From a virus: a stretch of DNA of 20,891 nucleotides. Position 1 is the stretch's first letter, and each line of letters starts with the position of its first letter. The notes beneath the pieces are model-generated. The model saw only the letters and a list, made by a program, of their open reading frames with translations, was not told the origin of the DNA and did not search any database. A program made the translations under genes and the position numbers. Shown here one piece after another: positions 4,289-20,787 of this stretch. The stretch is taken from positions 1 through 20,891 of the IMG/VR virus record IMGVR_UViG_3300002460_000197; one strand, written 5' to 3'.

Positions 4289-7200
4289 TTAAGTTACTGC
4301 GAATGTACAAGCCGCTGACACATTAACCATACCGTTCACAAACCAAGTAGTTCCATCACAGTAGAATTCATAATAATCAGCTGCAATAGATTGGTTTAGT
4401 ACAAAGTTAATTACGTCTTGTCCTGTGCCTGCTACACCTGCCCCACCCGCTCTTTCAACAACCATACCTTTTAATATATCAGAACCACCATTAGTAGTGA
4501 TAATATATGATGCTCCTGTTGGAGCTGTTTGCACGATAAATCTAAAGTGCAAACCTGCTGCTGGTGCTGGAAGTGTTGAAGTGAATCCACCTACCGCGTT
4601 TAAGAAGTAAGTAGTCCCAGATTCTGCTGCTGTAATAACATTTGTAGTTGTTACAACTTCAGTCATTTGCTGATAAGTTAAGGTTGAACTAAGTGTCGTT
4701 GCACCTGTAACTGTGAGTGTTTCATCAAAAGTTACAGTTCCTGCATCAACTTTAATAGCTTCACCCGCGCTACCAGAAGCGTTAATATACAGACAATAAG
4801 AACCTGATGTTGGCGTACCGGTTGAAGCAATAGAAACAATGTGTGAAGTAGAAGAGTGATTACCATTTGAGGTAATGTCTATCAAATTCGCGCCTGCTAC
4901 TAATGCTCCTGTGTGGGTAATATCTAATGCTGAACCTTCACCAGATACACCCGTAGCTGCTGAAGTTATAATAATAGCCTGACCACCCACGTTTGCTCCC
5001 ATTGCTAATTTAATAGCGTCACCGGTTGAAACACCAGTTGTGTAAGATACATCAAGAACATTTCCAGTAAAGACAGCATTTCCAATATCAATATTGAAGA
5101 TGTGTCCTGAACTTGTTGATGTTCCGGTGTATTGGAATACGTCTACTGAACCTGAACTTGAATCAGTAATTACAATAGCGTCCGCTACTCTTGCTCCTGC
5201 AAGTGTGTAGTTATGCACTATCGCACCCACCGCATTAGACATATTTATTTCAAATATGGTTCCCGTTGAGGCTTGATCGGTTGCGAAGTCAAAGATGTTT
5301 CCTGTATGAACACCACCCGTAATATCAATATCAATCAAAGGTGAGGCTGCTGCTCCAGTCAAAGTTGAAATATCAATATTAAAGAGTGTTCCACCCGCAC
5401 CTGAGGCGAAGGTGTGGTCAAGGGTAAAGAGGAATAGTTCCCCTGTTCTTGCCCCTGCTGTGTCCACTGTCATTACTTTTCCAGCAATATTAGAAGTACC
5501 TGTTTCCAAGTGAACTAATCCACCAGTCGTACAAGCTCCTGTCGCTGAAACTGTAAGAACGTGTCCGGTAAAGATACCAGTAGTTTGAGAGAATAATACT
5601 ATTCCATCAATACTTCCTGTTTCTACTGTTACAAGATCAATAATACTATCAGTCCTAGCGCCTGCACCAGTGATAACTAATGCTCCGCCAGCCACATTAT
5701 CAGCCATTACTACTTTCAAAGCATCACCTGTGTCGGCTGCCGAATAAGTAATGTCAATAACGTTTCCTGAACCAACTCCTGAAGAGTTGATGTCAAAGAC
5801 ATGCTGTGTTCCAGTGTTGGAATCATTGATTTCCATGAAGTCAATGTTACCAGTATTGTCATTAGTTACGGTAATTAAGTTTGCTGTTCTTGCTCCACCT
5901 CCTGCGTCTAGGAATAAGAACCTAGCCGCTAGGCCAGCGTTCATATCTACTGCGATAACATCACCCGTTGAAGCCGAACCAAGAGCAATATCTACAATAT
6001 TACCTGTATATACCCCTGAAACATCAATATCTATAAATGGCGAAGCTAAAGCCCCTGTCATTGAGATATTAGCGTCAAGGAATGTTCCACCCCCTGTTGC
6101 GCCGAATGTACCATCAAAGGTTGCCAGAATAGTTGCTACTGTCCTTGCTCCAGCGTGGTCAAAGGTAATCGCTTTGTAGGCGACACCCGCATCCAAGTTT
6201 AAGTGAAGCAAAGAGCCAGTCGTTGCAGCCGCTGAAGTAGTAAGAGTAACCAAACTACCAGTGTGAACTGCCGTGTTATCAACAAAGATAACACTTCCGT
6301 CAACAGAACCGTCATCGCCTGTGGTTATATCTATCAAACTATCAGTGCGTGTGCCTGTTGCCGCAATCTTTAATGCAGCTCCAGCGAGGTTAGTCGCCAT
6401 ATCTACATAAAGAGCATCGCCATCAGAAGCACCTACCGAATAAGTAATGTCAATAACATTACTATTCAAAAGTCCGCTGACATTGATGTCAAAGATATGG
6501 TCATCTGTGCCTCCATCTGTTCCAGCCGAAGTAATAAGAACTACTGGGGCTGTTCTTTCATTAGCGGTAACGATTTGAATAGCATTACCAGCCAAGTTTG
6601 AACCTGTGGTGATAAGAATACCTGCGCCTGTTGCTGCTGCTGAGAAGTTTATGTCAAGAATATCTCCTGTATAAGCTCCAGTAACATTAATGTCTATGAT
6701 AGACACATTTCCTGTTGAAGCGTCCGCAATCGCAATAGCATTATCAGTTCTGACACCTGTTCCACGAGTGATAAGAATACCACCCGTTGAAAGACCATCA
6801 GCGTTATCAAATGTTAGAGAGATGGCATTGCCTCCTGGTGAGCCGTTATAGGAGTTGGTATAGGCAAAGCCCGTTCCCGCTCCTGAACCACCAGCGTTAA
6901 TTTCTATATTGTTATGTGTTCCCGTTGAGGTATCAGTAAATTTAATATCTGAACCTGTCCTTGCATCAGTTGTTGAGGTAAATAGAATACCCTGTGATGC
7001 TACGCCAGTTCCGTAGTTGATGTCTATTACATTGCCTGTAAAGGCGGCTGTAATATCCACATCAACTAAATTACCTGAGCCAGCACCTGATTTGTTTATG
7101 TCAAGCACATTTGCCGCGCCTGCCGTAGAATCGTTTAATATGATTGCTCCGTCATCTACAGTGATAGTGTGTCCGTCAGAATATGACTCGTCTAATGAAC

Positions 7201-7405
7201 CACCTGCGCCACCAGTTCCACCAAGTGTGGTGATACTCGTTTTATTCCAAAATACCAATTCGTTTGAAGAATTGACATAAAGACCCCAGCCAGTTGAGTC
7301 GTTGGTCAAAGGATTTGAAGTTTTACTTACATCAAACCTCAAAATACCATCCCGTAGGTTGATATTTTTTGGTGAGCTGTAAGGATTAGCTGAAATTACA
7401 CTCAT
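4289..7405 (-). CDS. Giant repetitive beta-strand virion protein (1038 aa)
   Basis: The N-terminus (about residues 15-60, with GLYVNSSNELVFWNKTS) is followed by a Gly-rich linker at 61-70. From about 95 to 890 comes a long repeat region. Each unit carries a [T/S]GN[V/I][I/L]DI strand (starting near 123, 247, 314, 467, 546, 701 and 780) and a later GxRT turn (RT near 149, 219, 284, 353, 421, 506, 584 and 653), so the period is about 65-86 residues. The repeat region is rich in Gly, Ala, Thr, Asp and Ile and very poor in Lys, which suggests a beta-helix or stacked beta fibre. The last 120 residues form a different domain (TTYFLNAVGGFTSTLPAPAAG and YYEFYCDGTTWFVNG), like the C-terminal domains of other phage surface proteins. 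Placed just after the major capsid gene, it may be a head fibre, capsid surface protein or side fibre. Confidence 0.75.
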   Translation of the reverse strand: MSVISANPYSSPKNINLRDGILRFDVSKTSNPLTNDSTGWGLYVNSSNELVFWNKTSITTLGGTGGAGGSLDESYSDGHTITVDDGAIILNDSTAGAANVLDINKSGAGSGNLVDVDITAAFTGNVIDINYGTGVASQGILFTSTTDARTGSDIKFTDTSTGTHNNIEINAGGSGAGTGFAYTNSYNGSPGGNAISLTFDNADGLSTGGILITRGTGVRTDNAIAIADASTGNVSIIDINVTGAYTGDILDINFSAAATGAGILITTGSNLAGNAIQIVTANERTAPVVLITSAGTDGGTDDHIFDINVSGLLNSNVIDITYSVGASDGDALYVDMATNLAGAALKIAATGTRTDSLIDITTGDDGSVDGSVIFVDNTAVHTGSLVTLTTSAAATTGSLLHLNLDAGVAYKAITFDHAGARTVATILATFDGTFGATGGGTFLDANISMTGALASPFIDIDVSGVYTGNIVDIALGSASTGDVIAVDMNAGLAARFLFLDAGGGARTANLITVTNDNTGNIDFMEINDSNTGTQHVFDINSSGVGSGNVIDITYSAADTGDALKVVMADNVAGGALVITGAGARTDSIIDLVTVETGSIDGIVLFSQTTGIFTGHVLTVSATGACTTGGLVHLETGTSNIAGKVMTVDTAGARTGELFLFTLDHTFASGAGGTLFNIDISTLTGAAASPLIDIDITGGVHTGNIFDFATDQASTGTIFEINMSNAVGAIVHNYTLAGARVADAIVITDSSSGSVDVFQYTGTSTSSGHIFNIDIGNAVFTGNVLDVSYTTGVSTGDAIKLAMGANVGGQAIIITSAATGVSGEGSALDITHTGALVAGANLIDITSNGNHSSTSHIVSIASTGTPTSGSYCLYINASGSAGEAIKVDAGTVTFDETLTVTGATTLSSTLTYQQMTEVVTTTNVITAAESGTTYFLNAVGGFTSTLPAPAAGLHFRFIVQTAPTGASYIITTNGGSDILKGMVVERAGGAGVAGTGQDVINFVLNQSIAADYYEFYCDGTTWFVNGMVNVSAACTFAVT

Positions 7406-7517: not shown

Positions 7518-7992
7518 TTAGGAAGTTGTCGAATCCCCTTCGCTCCAGACCCACATCCTTGCTACATCATTAAATCCTTCTCTGAATAATGTATGCCCCA
7601 CGATTTGCATTTCGCGTGTCTTTGCAACTATGTTTACTGGGTCTACATTGTTTGCTTCTGATTCAATGTGTTGGAATCCATACTCATCGGATTTCAAAGA
7701 TGAATCAAACATTCCCCAAGCCGCATCTTTAGTAAGATACTTTAATGGGAGAATTTCAAACGCCGGGAGACCAGCTCCATCGTTGTCGTTGGACTCTGGA
7801 ATTTTGCCTTTCTTGATAGCTCCTAAAATTTCCAGTGCCTTAAAATGCACTGAAGAATTAAATTTGCATACAAGGGTATCTAAGGCTGCTGGCATTGGAT
7901 TGCCACGAGGGTCTACCATAAGTCCTGCTGTTCGCATAGCAGCTTTGTAGCCTGCATAGCCGAAGGGCAAAGAATATGTAGTGCCGTCATAT
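7518..7992 (-). CDS. Major capsid protein, 3' exon (residues 175-331 plus stop)
   Basis: This is the second exon of the intron-split major capsid gene. The first base (7992) completes codon 174, and the exon then reads YDGTTYSLPFGYAGYKAA. A TGA stop lies directly upstream in this frame, and the only candidate starts are a TTG at 7970 and later codons, so it makes little sense as an independent gene. The 157 residues look like the C-terminal half of an HK97-fold coat protein: ALDTLVCKFNSSVHFKALEIL, then a core ending in TREMQIVGHTLFREGFNDVARMWVWSEGD. Splicing to exon 1 gives a continuous 331-residue protein of typical coat-protein length. I infer the splice from RNA structure and frame; there is no transcript evidence. 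Confidence 0.82.
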
Positions 7993-8099
7993 CATTTTGT
8001 TACTACCCCATAGGGCGGGAGAGACACTTCGGACTCTCCTCTTATGATTTCTCATAAGTTCAGACTATCGCTTCATCCTCTATTGAGGAGCTTCTTCAC

Positions 8100-8597
8100 T
8101 TAGTCGTTGCGGCTGTGCGTGAACCCTGACTTGTTTCGTTCATTTAGCTTTCGCATTTTTAGTCTATATTCTTCTCGTTTTTCTATTTCAGAATCTGGAA
8201 TAAATAATCCTCTAAAGTTATCCTTGTTCTTTTTTTCCTGAAACTCAATCCCGAGTTTTACTTGTTCTTTCTTGAGAATAATATAGGGTTCTATAAGTTT
8301 CAAAAATTTTAGTGCATTTAATGAAGTTAGTGTCCACTGGTATGCAATAAACTCTTTGCGATACTTATAGGATTTAATTGTTCTATGAGGAGAAAATAAA
8401 TCGTAATGTAACTGGATAATATCTTTTTTTGTCCCAACTACTCTTACGGTCAAAGTATATGTATTCTTACTATCTTTCTTGTGTCTAGGTTTTATTCTAC
8501 CTATACATATAGTTCCCTCTCCATCAAAGAATCCTGCGATATAAGCTAATTGTAAGGGTTCATACTTGCCTCTGGTTGTCTTGTTTTGCTTTTTCAT
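8100..8597 (-). CDS. LAGLIDADG homing endonuclease encoded within the intron
   Basis: The 165-residue protein carries one LAGLIDADG-family motif at residues 17-28 (LAYIAGFFDGEG). A single-motif enzyme of this size normally works as a homodimer whose two copies each contribute the acidic motif residue. It would cut the intronless capsid allele around GTCGT/ATATG and so spread the intron. The middle is beta-rich (TYTLTVRVVGTKKDI) and the C-terminus is very basic. The last codons and the TAA stop coincide with intron core bases: the P5 3' strand is inside the gene and TAA falls in GACTAA of P7. A possible promoter lies just upstream inside the intron. The motif looks intact, so the enzyme may be active. 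Confidence 0.9.
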   Translation of the reverse strand: MKKQNKTTRGKYEPLQLAYIAGFFDGEGTICIGRIKPRHKKDSKNTYTLTVRVVGTKKDIIQLHYDLFSPHRTIKSYKYRKEFIAYQWTLTSLNALKFLKLIEPYIILKKEQVKLGIEFQEKKNKDNFRGLFIPDSEIEKREEYRLKMRKLNERNKSGFTHSRND

Positions 8598-8605
8598 ATA
8601 CTACT

Positions 8606-8634
8606 ATCATACTCTACTGTTGTATATTATGCAA
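8606..8634 (-). promoter_or_regulatory. Possible intron-internal promoter for the homing endonuclease
   Basis: TTGCAT (8629-8634) and TATGAT (8606-8611) are separated by 17 nt, a good match to sigma70-type -35 and -10 boxes. The -10 box ends 8 nt before the endonuclease ATG, so the transcript would be nearly leaderless. The sequence also lies in the intron, so chance AT-richness or RNA-structure constraint could explain it. Confidence 0.35.
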
Positions 8635-8733
8635 GCAATCGTCAGAGTTTCCAAATGTAATCAGAAGAAGTTTATCGATGGCTTTTATATATAAGCCAAA
8701 GGTCGCATATGGTACGGTGAAACCATTTTGTTT

Positions 8734-9254
8734 ACGACATTATTCATTGAACTGCCCCCATCTTCACGAGTGTGAGTTGTTATCCAAGGCTCAAGACCAT
8801 CTCCACCTGTGATAGTGATAGTTGTATTACCACCTATACCCTGATGGGAATAAGTTGTTCCAAAACCATTAGTTAATCTTTCTGCTGCAAGTTTTTCTTT
8901 CTTGCGATTAAGAGCATTAAGAACTTGTTTTACGAAGTTCGTTAATTTTCTCTTTTTGAAACCGAACTTATACACTTGATAGGACATCGGCAAGAGAATA
9001 TCAACTTGCTGTTGAGTATAGCTCTGGTCAAAACCCTGCACCGGCACATCTTCTGTAACTTGTGCGTTCTCTGTGGTAAATTCCGCTTCTTTAAGACCTG
9101 AAATTGAAGAATCCTTCTCAATCAAATCTTCGGTAGTCCTGAAGTTGTAATACTTTTTAAGCATCAAATCAGGTTCTGCCTCTTTTTTTACGATTTTTTG
9201 AATCGCTAGGTTCGTAGAGTCTACGAATTGTCCTAAATTAAATGGGCTTGCCAT
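8734..9254 (-). CDS. Major capsid protein, 5' exon (residues 1-174)
   Basis: Exon 1 encodes MASPFNLGQFVDSTNLAIQK through HTREDGGSSMNNVV. Its last two bases, GT, form codon 174 (GTA, Val) with the first base of exon 2. The pattern of an N-terminal arm, an E-loop-like region (GFDQSYTQQQVDILLPMSYQV), a spine helix (KLTNFVKQVLNALNRKKEKLA) and then WITTHTREDGG is characteristic of HK97-fold coat proteins of tailed phages. Without splicing, the frame runs on into the intron and stops at 8685, giving a truncated 189-residue product. No standard ribosome site precedes the ATG (context AAACAAAATGG). A GGAG sits 22 nt upstream in the loop of a 9-bp hairpin. The gene follows the decoration-like gene in an apparent capsid operon. 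Confidence 0.85.
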
Positions 9255-18949: not shown

Positions 18950-19471
18950 TTAGAGTTCCACAAATGTTAATTCTTTTCCTATATTTAAGCCGTGCGTGAA
19001 CCAAGCGGAGGCGAACCAAGCACTACTTTTTTCTATTTTATTCGGTGTTTCAAAATTTATTCGCTTATCAAAAAATATAACTTCAAGTCCGTGTTTCTTA
19101 AAAAGTTCTTGCCGTTTTTTTGTTTCAAAAGTGGTGAGTGGTAAAAGAAGCGCGAACGGCTTTCCTAAATTATAACACCTTTCAAGAAATTTCTGCTTGA
19201 TAGAAAATGGCGGATTTGTTATAATGCAATCAAATACTTTACTTGGAGTATCAGTTAAAAAATCTCTAAAAGGTTCATTTCCATAATCAACATATAAATC
19301 AGAACCCACAACATTAAATCCTTTGTCCGCCAATTCTTTAACAAGATTTCCTTTTCCACAAGCACATTCCCAGATAGTCCATTCCTTTTTTAGATAAGGC
19401 AAAAGTGGCTTTAACGCTTCAGGCGGAGTTTGAAAATCATTACTATTTCCTTGTTTTAATGGAGGTTTCAT
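18950..19471 (-). CDS. Compact N6-adenine-type DNA methyltransferase
   Basis: The 173-residue protein has the class I SAM-dependent fold motifs. NDFQTPPEAL (residues 11-20) is the usual motif X context. ECACGKGNL (35-43) is the SAM-binding motif I, GSDLY (56-60) a probable acidic loop, and TNPPFS (85-90) the NPPY-type catalytic motif IV of amino-methyltransferases acting on adenine. The whole enzyme is only 173 residues and no separate target-recognition domain is visible. It may therefore recognise a short site or modify another nucleic acid. It has no obvious restriction partner. Phage orphan methyltransferases often protect the phage DNA from host restriction, but the substrate is not shown by sequence. 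Confidence 0.75.
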   Translation of the reverse strand: MKPPLKQGNSNDFQTPPEALKPLLPYLKKEWTIWECACGKGNLVKELADKGFNVVGSDLYVDYGNEPFRDFLTDTPSKVFDCIITNPPFSIKQKFLERCYNLGKPFALLLPLTTFETKKRQELFKKHGLEVIFFDKRINFETPNKIEKSSAWFASAWFTHGLNIGKELTFVEL

Positions 19472-20295: not shown

Positions 20296-20787
20296 TTAGG
20301 TTTTTAAAAACTCGTCTAACTGTTCTTTGGTGTTATTTTTATATCCATACTTTTTATGGAATACCCTATGAGTTTCTGCCGTCAAGGTAATACCATTCTC
20401 AATACTCGTTCTTAGTTCAGGATAATCAGCAAAGTTGTGAATATGATGGACTATAAGTTTCCCTCCATTTTGTCCTGTTTTTTGGCAAGTAAAACGGTCT
20501 CTTTCTAAAACTGCCTTATGCCACAACCGAAGCTCTAACGACTTCCTTATCTTTTTGTGTAAAGGCTTAACTCCTCCTTTCCACCAAACCGATTTAGCTC
20601 CTTTGTGTGCTTCTGATAATCTTTGTCTGTGATAAACACTAAGTTTTCGCCCAGTTCTTCGTGCTATGGCTTCAGGAGAATGTTTTAAACCTTTACAGGA
20701 AGCACTTATCTTTTTCTTGGTTTCTTCTGTGTGTTTTTTATGTGGGAATATACCCGAACCAACAGACTTTTTTCCTTTTTGTGGCAT
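20296..20787 (-). CDS. NUMOD3/HNH homing-type endonuclease
   Basis: The 163-residue protein begins with a basic N-terminus and two NUMOD3-like DNA-binding repeats, HTEETKKKISASCKG (residues 19-33) and HRQRLSEAHKGAKSVWWKGG (53-72). The C-terminal nuclease shows RFTCQKTG (98-105), LIVHHIHNF (111-119), ENGITL (130-135) and ETHRVFH (138-144), the His-Asn-His pattern that makes a beta-beta-alpha metal finger. Only one Cys of the usual pair is present. Such proteins act as free-standing phage homing endonucleases and nick or cut DNA near their own gene. It stands between unknown genes with no flanking intron visible, so I treat it as free-standing. An extended -10 promoter precedes it. Confidence 0.85.
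   Translation of the reverse strand: MPQKGKKSVGSGIFPHKKHTEETKKKISASCKGLKHSPEAIARRTGRKLSVYHRQRLSEAHKGAKSVWWKGGVKPLHKKIRKSLELRLWHKAVLERDRFTCQKTGQNGGKLIVHHIHNFADYPELRTSIENGITLTAETHRVFHKKYGYKNNTKEQLDEFLKT

Follow-up and report, generated by a model that had tools for sequence, protein, structure and literature searches.

Evidence for a mobile group I intron carrying a LAGLIDADG endonuclease in the capsid gene of an uncultured bacterial virus

How an intact coat protein could be obtained from a capsid gene that is written in two pieces is the question raised by a metagenomic fragment of an uncultured bacterial virus, recorded in IMG/VR with 20,891 bases, the whole of which is referred to here as the window. 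The gene occupies 9254..7518 on the minus strand and is split at exactly 8733..7993 by an insert of 741 nt, and codon 174 is broken after its second base (NNV V/YDG). Translation of the joined exons, with 8733..7993 removed, gives a stop-free frame of 331 residues, and translation of the unspliced frame gives a 189-aa product that ends after 15 intron-coded residues. The split points, the frame, and the coordinates given in the preliminary description are exact to the base, and the early stop that it expected for a retained intron is indeed encountered. We conclude with great confidence that the capsid gene contains a mobile group I intron with its own endonuclease, for which splicing, cleavage, and homing would be the expected activities. 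Judging from its sequence, the intron is almost certainly self-splicing.

The assignment of the gene product as a coat protein is based on its predicted fold and on gene order, with a terminase upstream and a cement-like protein adjacent. The capsid exons show no Pfam or PHROG capsid match, and the intact homologue shows no PHROG match. An AlphaFold model of this homologue (L147/L002), which is 85% identical, was built from 47 sequences with a pLDDT of 87.9 and was used instead of an earlier, poor model from 16 sequences (pLDDT 55). When the homologue model was compared with the PDB, the best matches were HK97-fold capsids (E 3e-11), and mature HK97 was matched at E 9e-10; the TM-scores normalised by query are 0.56 for the best PDB match and 0.57 for mature HK97. 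The predicted structure is in good agreement with the HK97-type coat protein that had been proposed. Directly downstream of the capsid gene, window positions 4289-7405 encode a repetitive protein of 1038 residues without a PHROG match, and a protein with a similar start is found in the same place in another viral contig (L218, 5545-8256).

An empty site could be recognized among the relatives of the gene. By tblastn, the joined protein matches 28 viral contigs and is paired with uninterrupted genes of 993-996 nt, and the 331 residues can be aligned to uninterrupted homologues without gaps at up to 85% identity. In the closest relatives, the DNA is continuous through the junction, reading ...AACAATGTTGT/TTATGATGG... 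in L002, with equivalents in the other loci listed. The alignment with related coat proteins that had been put forward as a check has therefore come out in favor of an intron, since the relatives continue gap-free across the junction. A profile search of viral contigs yielded 104 capsid relatives; among the best 80 of these contigs, the gene is uninterrupted over its whole length in 62, interrupted in 15, and running off the contig in three. The insertion site in the window falls in the HTREDGG..NNVVYDGTTY block, and a stretch of 11 residues with this site at its centre ranks among the most conserved 5% of the protein. Homing introns usually occupy such strongly conserved sites. No relative was found when genome contigs were scanned with the capsid alignment, and the capsid is not encoded by any phage record in the collection searched. 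Two 3' ends on different contigs (L028 and L029) both stop within the same two capsid codons (residue ~201), a shared end point that is possibly an assembly break from strain variation.

The ribozyme elements P1, P10, P3, P7, P8, and P9 could all be found as originally drawn, as could the U.G pair at the splice point and the terminal G, both of which are likewise present in L218 (Table 1). The internal guide pairs with the two exons of the window over 5 bp in P1 and 5 bp in P10. The P4, P5, and P6 helices, for each of which 3 bp were counted, are short, and comparison with L218, L221, and L224 served to place their strands in an alignment made partly by eye around the excised ORF. For the P4 3' strand, a position beyond the ORF was rejected, since L218 and L221 have this strand as ACCAGAGGC where the ORF begins. 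When 801 nt were folded thermodynamically, a z of -5.2 was obtained, and the pseudoknotted core is absent from this fold, which was hence not counted as evidence for the intron. Promoter-like matches in this region are no more frequent than in shuffles. A 9-base direct repeat, AACAAAATG, lies just within both intron ends (window 8724-8732 and 7993-8001), and a GTAACAAAATTG-like 3' end is common to other introns of these capsid genes. According to the proposed mechanism, the capsid mRNA would fold so that the internal guide aligns both exons via P1 and P10, a guanosine would attack after U8734, and U8734 would be ligated to A7992, so that an intron with G7993 as its last base would be set free and the complete coat protein of 331 residues could be made.

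Table 1. Coordinates of the capsid exons, the proposed intron, and its elements in the window
Feature	Position	Strand	Remarks
Capsid exon 1	8734..9254	-	residues 1-173 and first two bases of codon 174; 3' end GTCGT
P1 exon strand GUCGU	8734..8738	-	U.G at splice site; partner GCGAC 8706-8702; covaries with AUCGU/GCGAU in L218
Group I intron	7993..8733	-	741 nt; U precedes, last base G (G7993)
Internal guide	8702..8711	-	CAUAU 8711-8707 can pair with 3' exon AUAUG 7992-7988 (P10); GCGAC 8706-8702 in P1; read from sequence
P2 hairpin UGGCUU...AAGCCA	8679..8698	-	CCUGC...GCAGG in L218 instead
P3 5' strand CUUCUUC	8664..8670	-	
P4 5' (UGG 8653-8651) and P5 5' (UCU 8646-8644)	8643..8656	-	
LAGLIDADG homing endonuclease ORF	8100..8597	-	165 aa, single motif LAYIAGFFDGEGTI; in L6; start overlaps P5/P4/P6, end overlaps P6/P7
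P5 3' (AGA), P4 3' (CCA), P6 5' (GGC)	8565..8582	-	within ORF codons KTTRGK
P6 3' (GCC 8113-8111) and P7 5' (GACUA 8105-8101)	8101..8117	-	within last ORF codons SRND-stop
P3 3' strand GAAGAAG	8091..8097	-	
P8 hairpin UCCUC AAUA GAGGA	8074..8090	-	
J8/7 and P7 3' (UAGUC 8067-8063)	8063..8074	-	
P9 hairpin CUUAUGA GAAA UCAUAAG	8041..8058	-	
P9.1 (8039-8018) and P9.2 (8016-8005) hairpins	8005..8039	-	L218 has similar hairpins
Capsid exon 2	7518..7992	-	starts ATATGACGG; includes stop codon

The pairings could be evaluated by comparison with L218, which contains, at the same codon position, a homologous intron with a LAGLIDADG ORF 45% identical to that of the window (E 2e-44). P1 is GUCGU/GCGAC in the window versus AUCGU/GCGAU in L218, where an exon change of G to A, which turns a Val into an Ile codon, is compensated by a change of C to U in the guide. 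P2 is rebuilt (UGGCUU/AAGCCA in the window versus CCUGC/GCAGG in L218), P3 is CUUCUUC/GAAGAAG versus UUUCUUC/GAAGAAA, and the P10 pairing is weaker in L218 than in the window. In an alignment of five cores with their ORFs excised (window, L218, L224, L221, and L040), 97.8% of cells are paired and 13 pairs are changed on both sides. The covariation of 0.448, compared to 0.153 for shuffled alignments, is reached in none of 500 shuffles, and P7, being invariant among the five cores, is uninformative in this respect.

The covariance-model search for group I introns (Rfam RF00028) that had been suggested gave a divided result. A match was obtained at 8207..8041 on the minus strand, which is the right one, with an E value of 4.3e-5, but its 28.6 bits are under the gathering score of 50, a limit for detection that does not itself define a group I intron, and the intron is not reported by a default Rfam scan. 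The Rfam alignment places ORF sequence in the 5' half of the model, and the true 5' half (P1-P5) lies ~500 nt upstream of the aligned stretch. The low score is due to the ORF in L6, which overlaps the ribozyme core at both ends. The 23-nt P8/J8-7/P7 string was also found in four viral contigs (L030-L033), in which a short ORF-less group I intron splits a tape-measure-like gene (gene name read from sequence). RF00028 reports none of these four cores at E 0.1, and since it misses complete ORF-less relatives, the model is insensitive to this subgroup. With a gapped core pattern, 117 viral stretches were matched, revealing a large family of short group I introns. Across 47 aligned ORF-less cores, which contain P3, P4, P5, P6, P7, and P8, the covariation is 0.405 versus 0.139 for shuffles and at most 0.093 for slides. 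A model built from these 47 cores (R1) finds the 3' half of the window's intron at 25 bits (E 6e-4, 112 kb searched), and the true 5' half appears separately and weakly. The empty site and the covariation, both with the same-site allele and with the wider intron family, support the group I intron that had been claimed. It could be argued from the low RF00028 score and from the metagenomic origin of the window that the insert is an intron remnant whose ribozyme no longer splices, so that a dead capsid gene would lie in a defective or chimeric contig. This is very unlikely, because all core helices pair, the splice sites retain their bases, the reading frames of the endonuclease and of both exons are open, and an independent contig has the same arrangement.

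The ORF within the intron matches Pfam LAGLIDADG_1 (PF00961) with a score of 23.1, exactly at the curated cut-off (E 1.4e-4), and PHROG 5046 with E 9.6e-23, as expected for the LAGLIDADG endonuclease that had been claimed, and the motif is conserved in L218 and L052. Since there is only one such motif, the enzyme probably acts as a homodimer. This homodimer would cut intronless capsid alleles at the conserved site, whereupon repair would copy the intron in. The closest annotated proteins are the LAGLIDADG endonucleases of the Streptomyces phages Navo and Braelyn, which are 38.5% identical over 86% of the ORF. A search of viral contigs with the single endonuclease sequence found nothing, and a three-member alignment found 54 loci, of which the contigs of L218 and L052 (L223, L224) are the only ones to match the capsid with the endonuclease inside; another of these loci, L240, has a weak capsid match (22%). 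Endonuclease ORFs that reach from a loop into core helices are a known arrangement in group I introns (review, PMC3984707), and the window resembles these cases but differs from them in that its overlap is at both ORF ends (P5/P4/P6 and P6/P7). Such overlap would account for the conservation of KTTRGK and SRND at the two ends of the protein.

An endonuclease ORF between two coat-protein halves is also what would be seen if a free-standing homing endonuclease gene had settled in a capsid gene that is now truly two genes, without any splicing. A TTG at 7970 is given as the start of an ORF for exon 2, and a separate C-terminal polypeptide is conceivable. However, this start would lose the first residues of exon 2, which are part of the best conserved block, and the covarying ribozyme core, the P1 and P10 matches to the exons, and the same-site covariation of exon and guide would be left unexplained, making two separate genes extremely improbable. 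Readthrough of the insert at the protein or translation level, as an intein or as a bypass/frameshift element, would suit the length of 741 as a multiple of three but has a negligible chance in view of the group I core, the Pfam and PHROG scans, which detect nothing but the endonuclease in the ORF and in particular no domain for intein splicing, and the many in-frame stops through the insert, the first 15 codons past the junction, which exclude an intein.

With the insert taken as a mobile group I intron, it could be compared to the other interruptions in this capsid family. The family is a target for introns, and most of the interrupted homologous contigs have their insert elsewhere than at the site in the window. 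Interruptions are found near residue 80 (L193-L195), near residue 95 (L022-L025, L027, L190, L191, L198, L203, L204, and L218), at residue 168 (L221), and at residue 174 (the window and L218). Several of the inserts near residue 95 are group I introns by RF00028, with up to 94.8 bits, and the insert near residue 80 reaches only 20 bits with R1 (E 0.011). The group I intron near residue 95, located at L023:833-1754, in the corresponding region of L022, L024, and L025, and also in L027, L190, L191, L198, L203, L204, and L218, differs from that of the window and has HNH-like ORFs in some copies and none in others. On the single contig of L224 and L052, whose capsid is ~40% identical, four R1 cores are found in one capsid gene and a fifth downstream. 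In this gene (L224:942-3536), the cores lie at 1209, 1665, 2065, and 2936, the downstream core is at 4579, and exons 3 and 4 are tens of bases each.

A broader and rather doubtful reading of these data is that group I introns have repeatedly landed in the capsid gene of the clade, at five or more sites, in LAGLIDADG, HNH, and ORF-less forms, and with up to four introns per gene. If this were true, the supply of coat protein would genuinely be controlled through the efficiency of splicing, and the endonucleases would keep watch over the exchange of capsid genes among co-infecting phages. The regulatory idea of the preliminary description, in which particle production is tied to RNA folding, is hypothetical. 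The natural series in one highly expressed gene, from an empty site through an ORF-less intron and an intron with an endonuclease to several introns, is useful for asking about the cost or role of such introns.

The rarity of capsid-gene introns suggested in the preliminary description was overstated, as they have been reported in LittleE, Tuc2009, and crAss-like phages. In mycobacteriophage LittleE, a group I-like intron (~819 bp) interrupts an HK97-type major capsid gene, and Pope et al. (2013, PMC3706429) demonstrated by RT-PCR together with N-terminal sequencing that it is spliced. As in the window, a U precedes the LittleE intron, which ends in G and encodes a LAGLIDADG-type endonuclease, and intronless relatives are known; the two differ in that the endonuclease ORF of LittleE is on the opposite strand and in that splicing is experimentally established there, whereas for the window it is deduced. 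Lactococcal phage Tuc2009 is cited in the same paper (PMC3706429) as a case in which the gene for a capsid subunit contains a group I intron, a feature that it shares with the window. Group I introns are also found in the major capsid protein genes of crAss-like phages (Delta and Zeta), one Zeta gene being in five fragments (Yutin et al. 2021, PMC7886860), which is comparable to the four-intron capsid gene of L224, although these are different and much larger gut phages. The arrangement has thus been reported in other phages, and the window adds a well-supported example in a clade that is absent from the phage records searched. In annotation, its capsid gene wrongly appears as two fragments plus an endonuclease, and the intron is missed by standard Rfam settings.

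Two further ORFs of the window were observed at a distance from the capsid gene. Positions 20296-20787 contain a NUMOD3/HNH homing endonuclease ORF, which is probably free-standing, and positions 18950-19471 contain a small methyltransferase-like ORF with an NPPF motif and weak Pfam matches.
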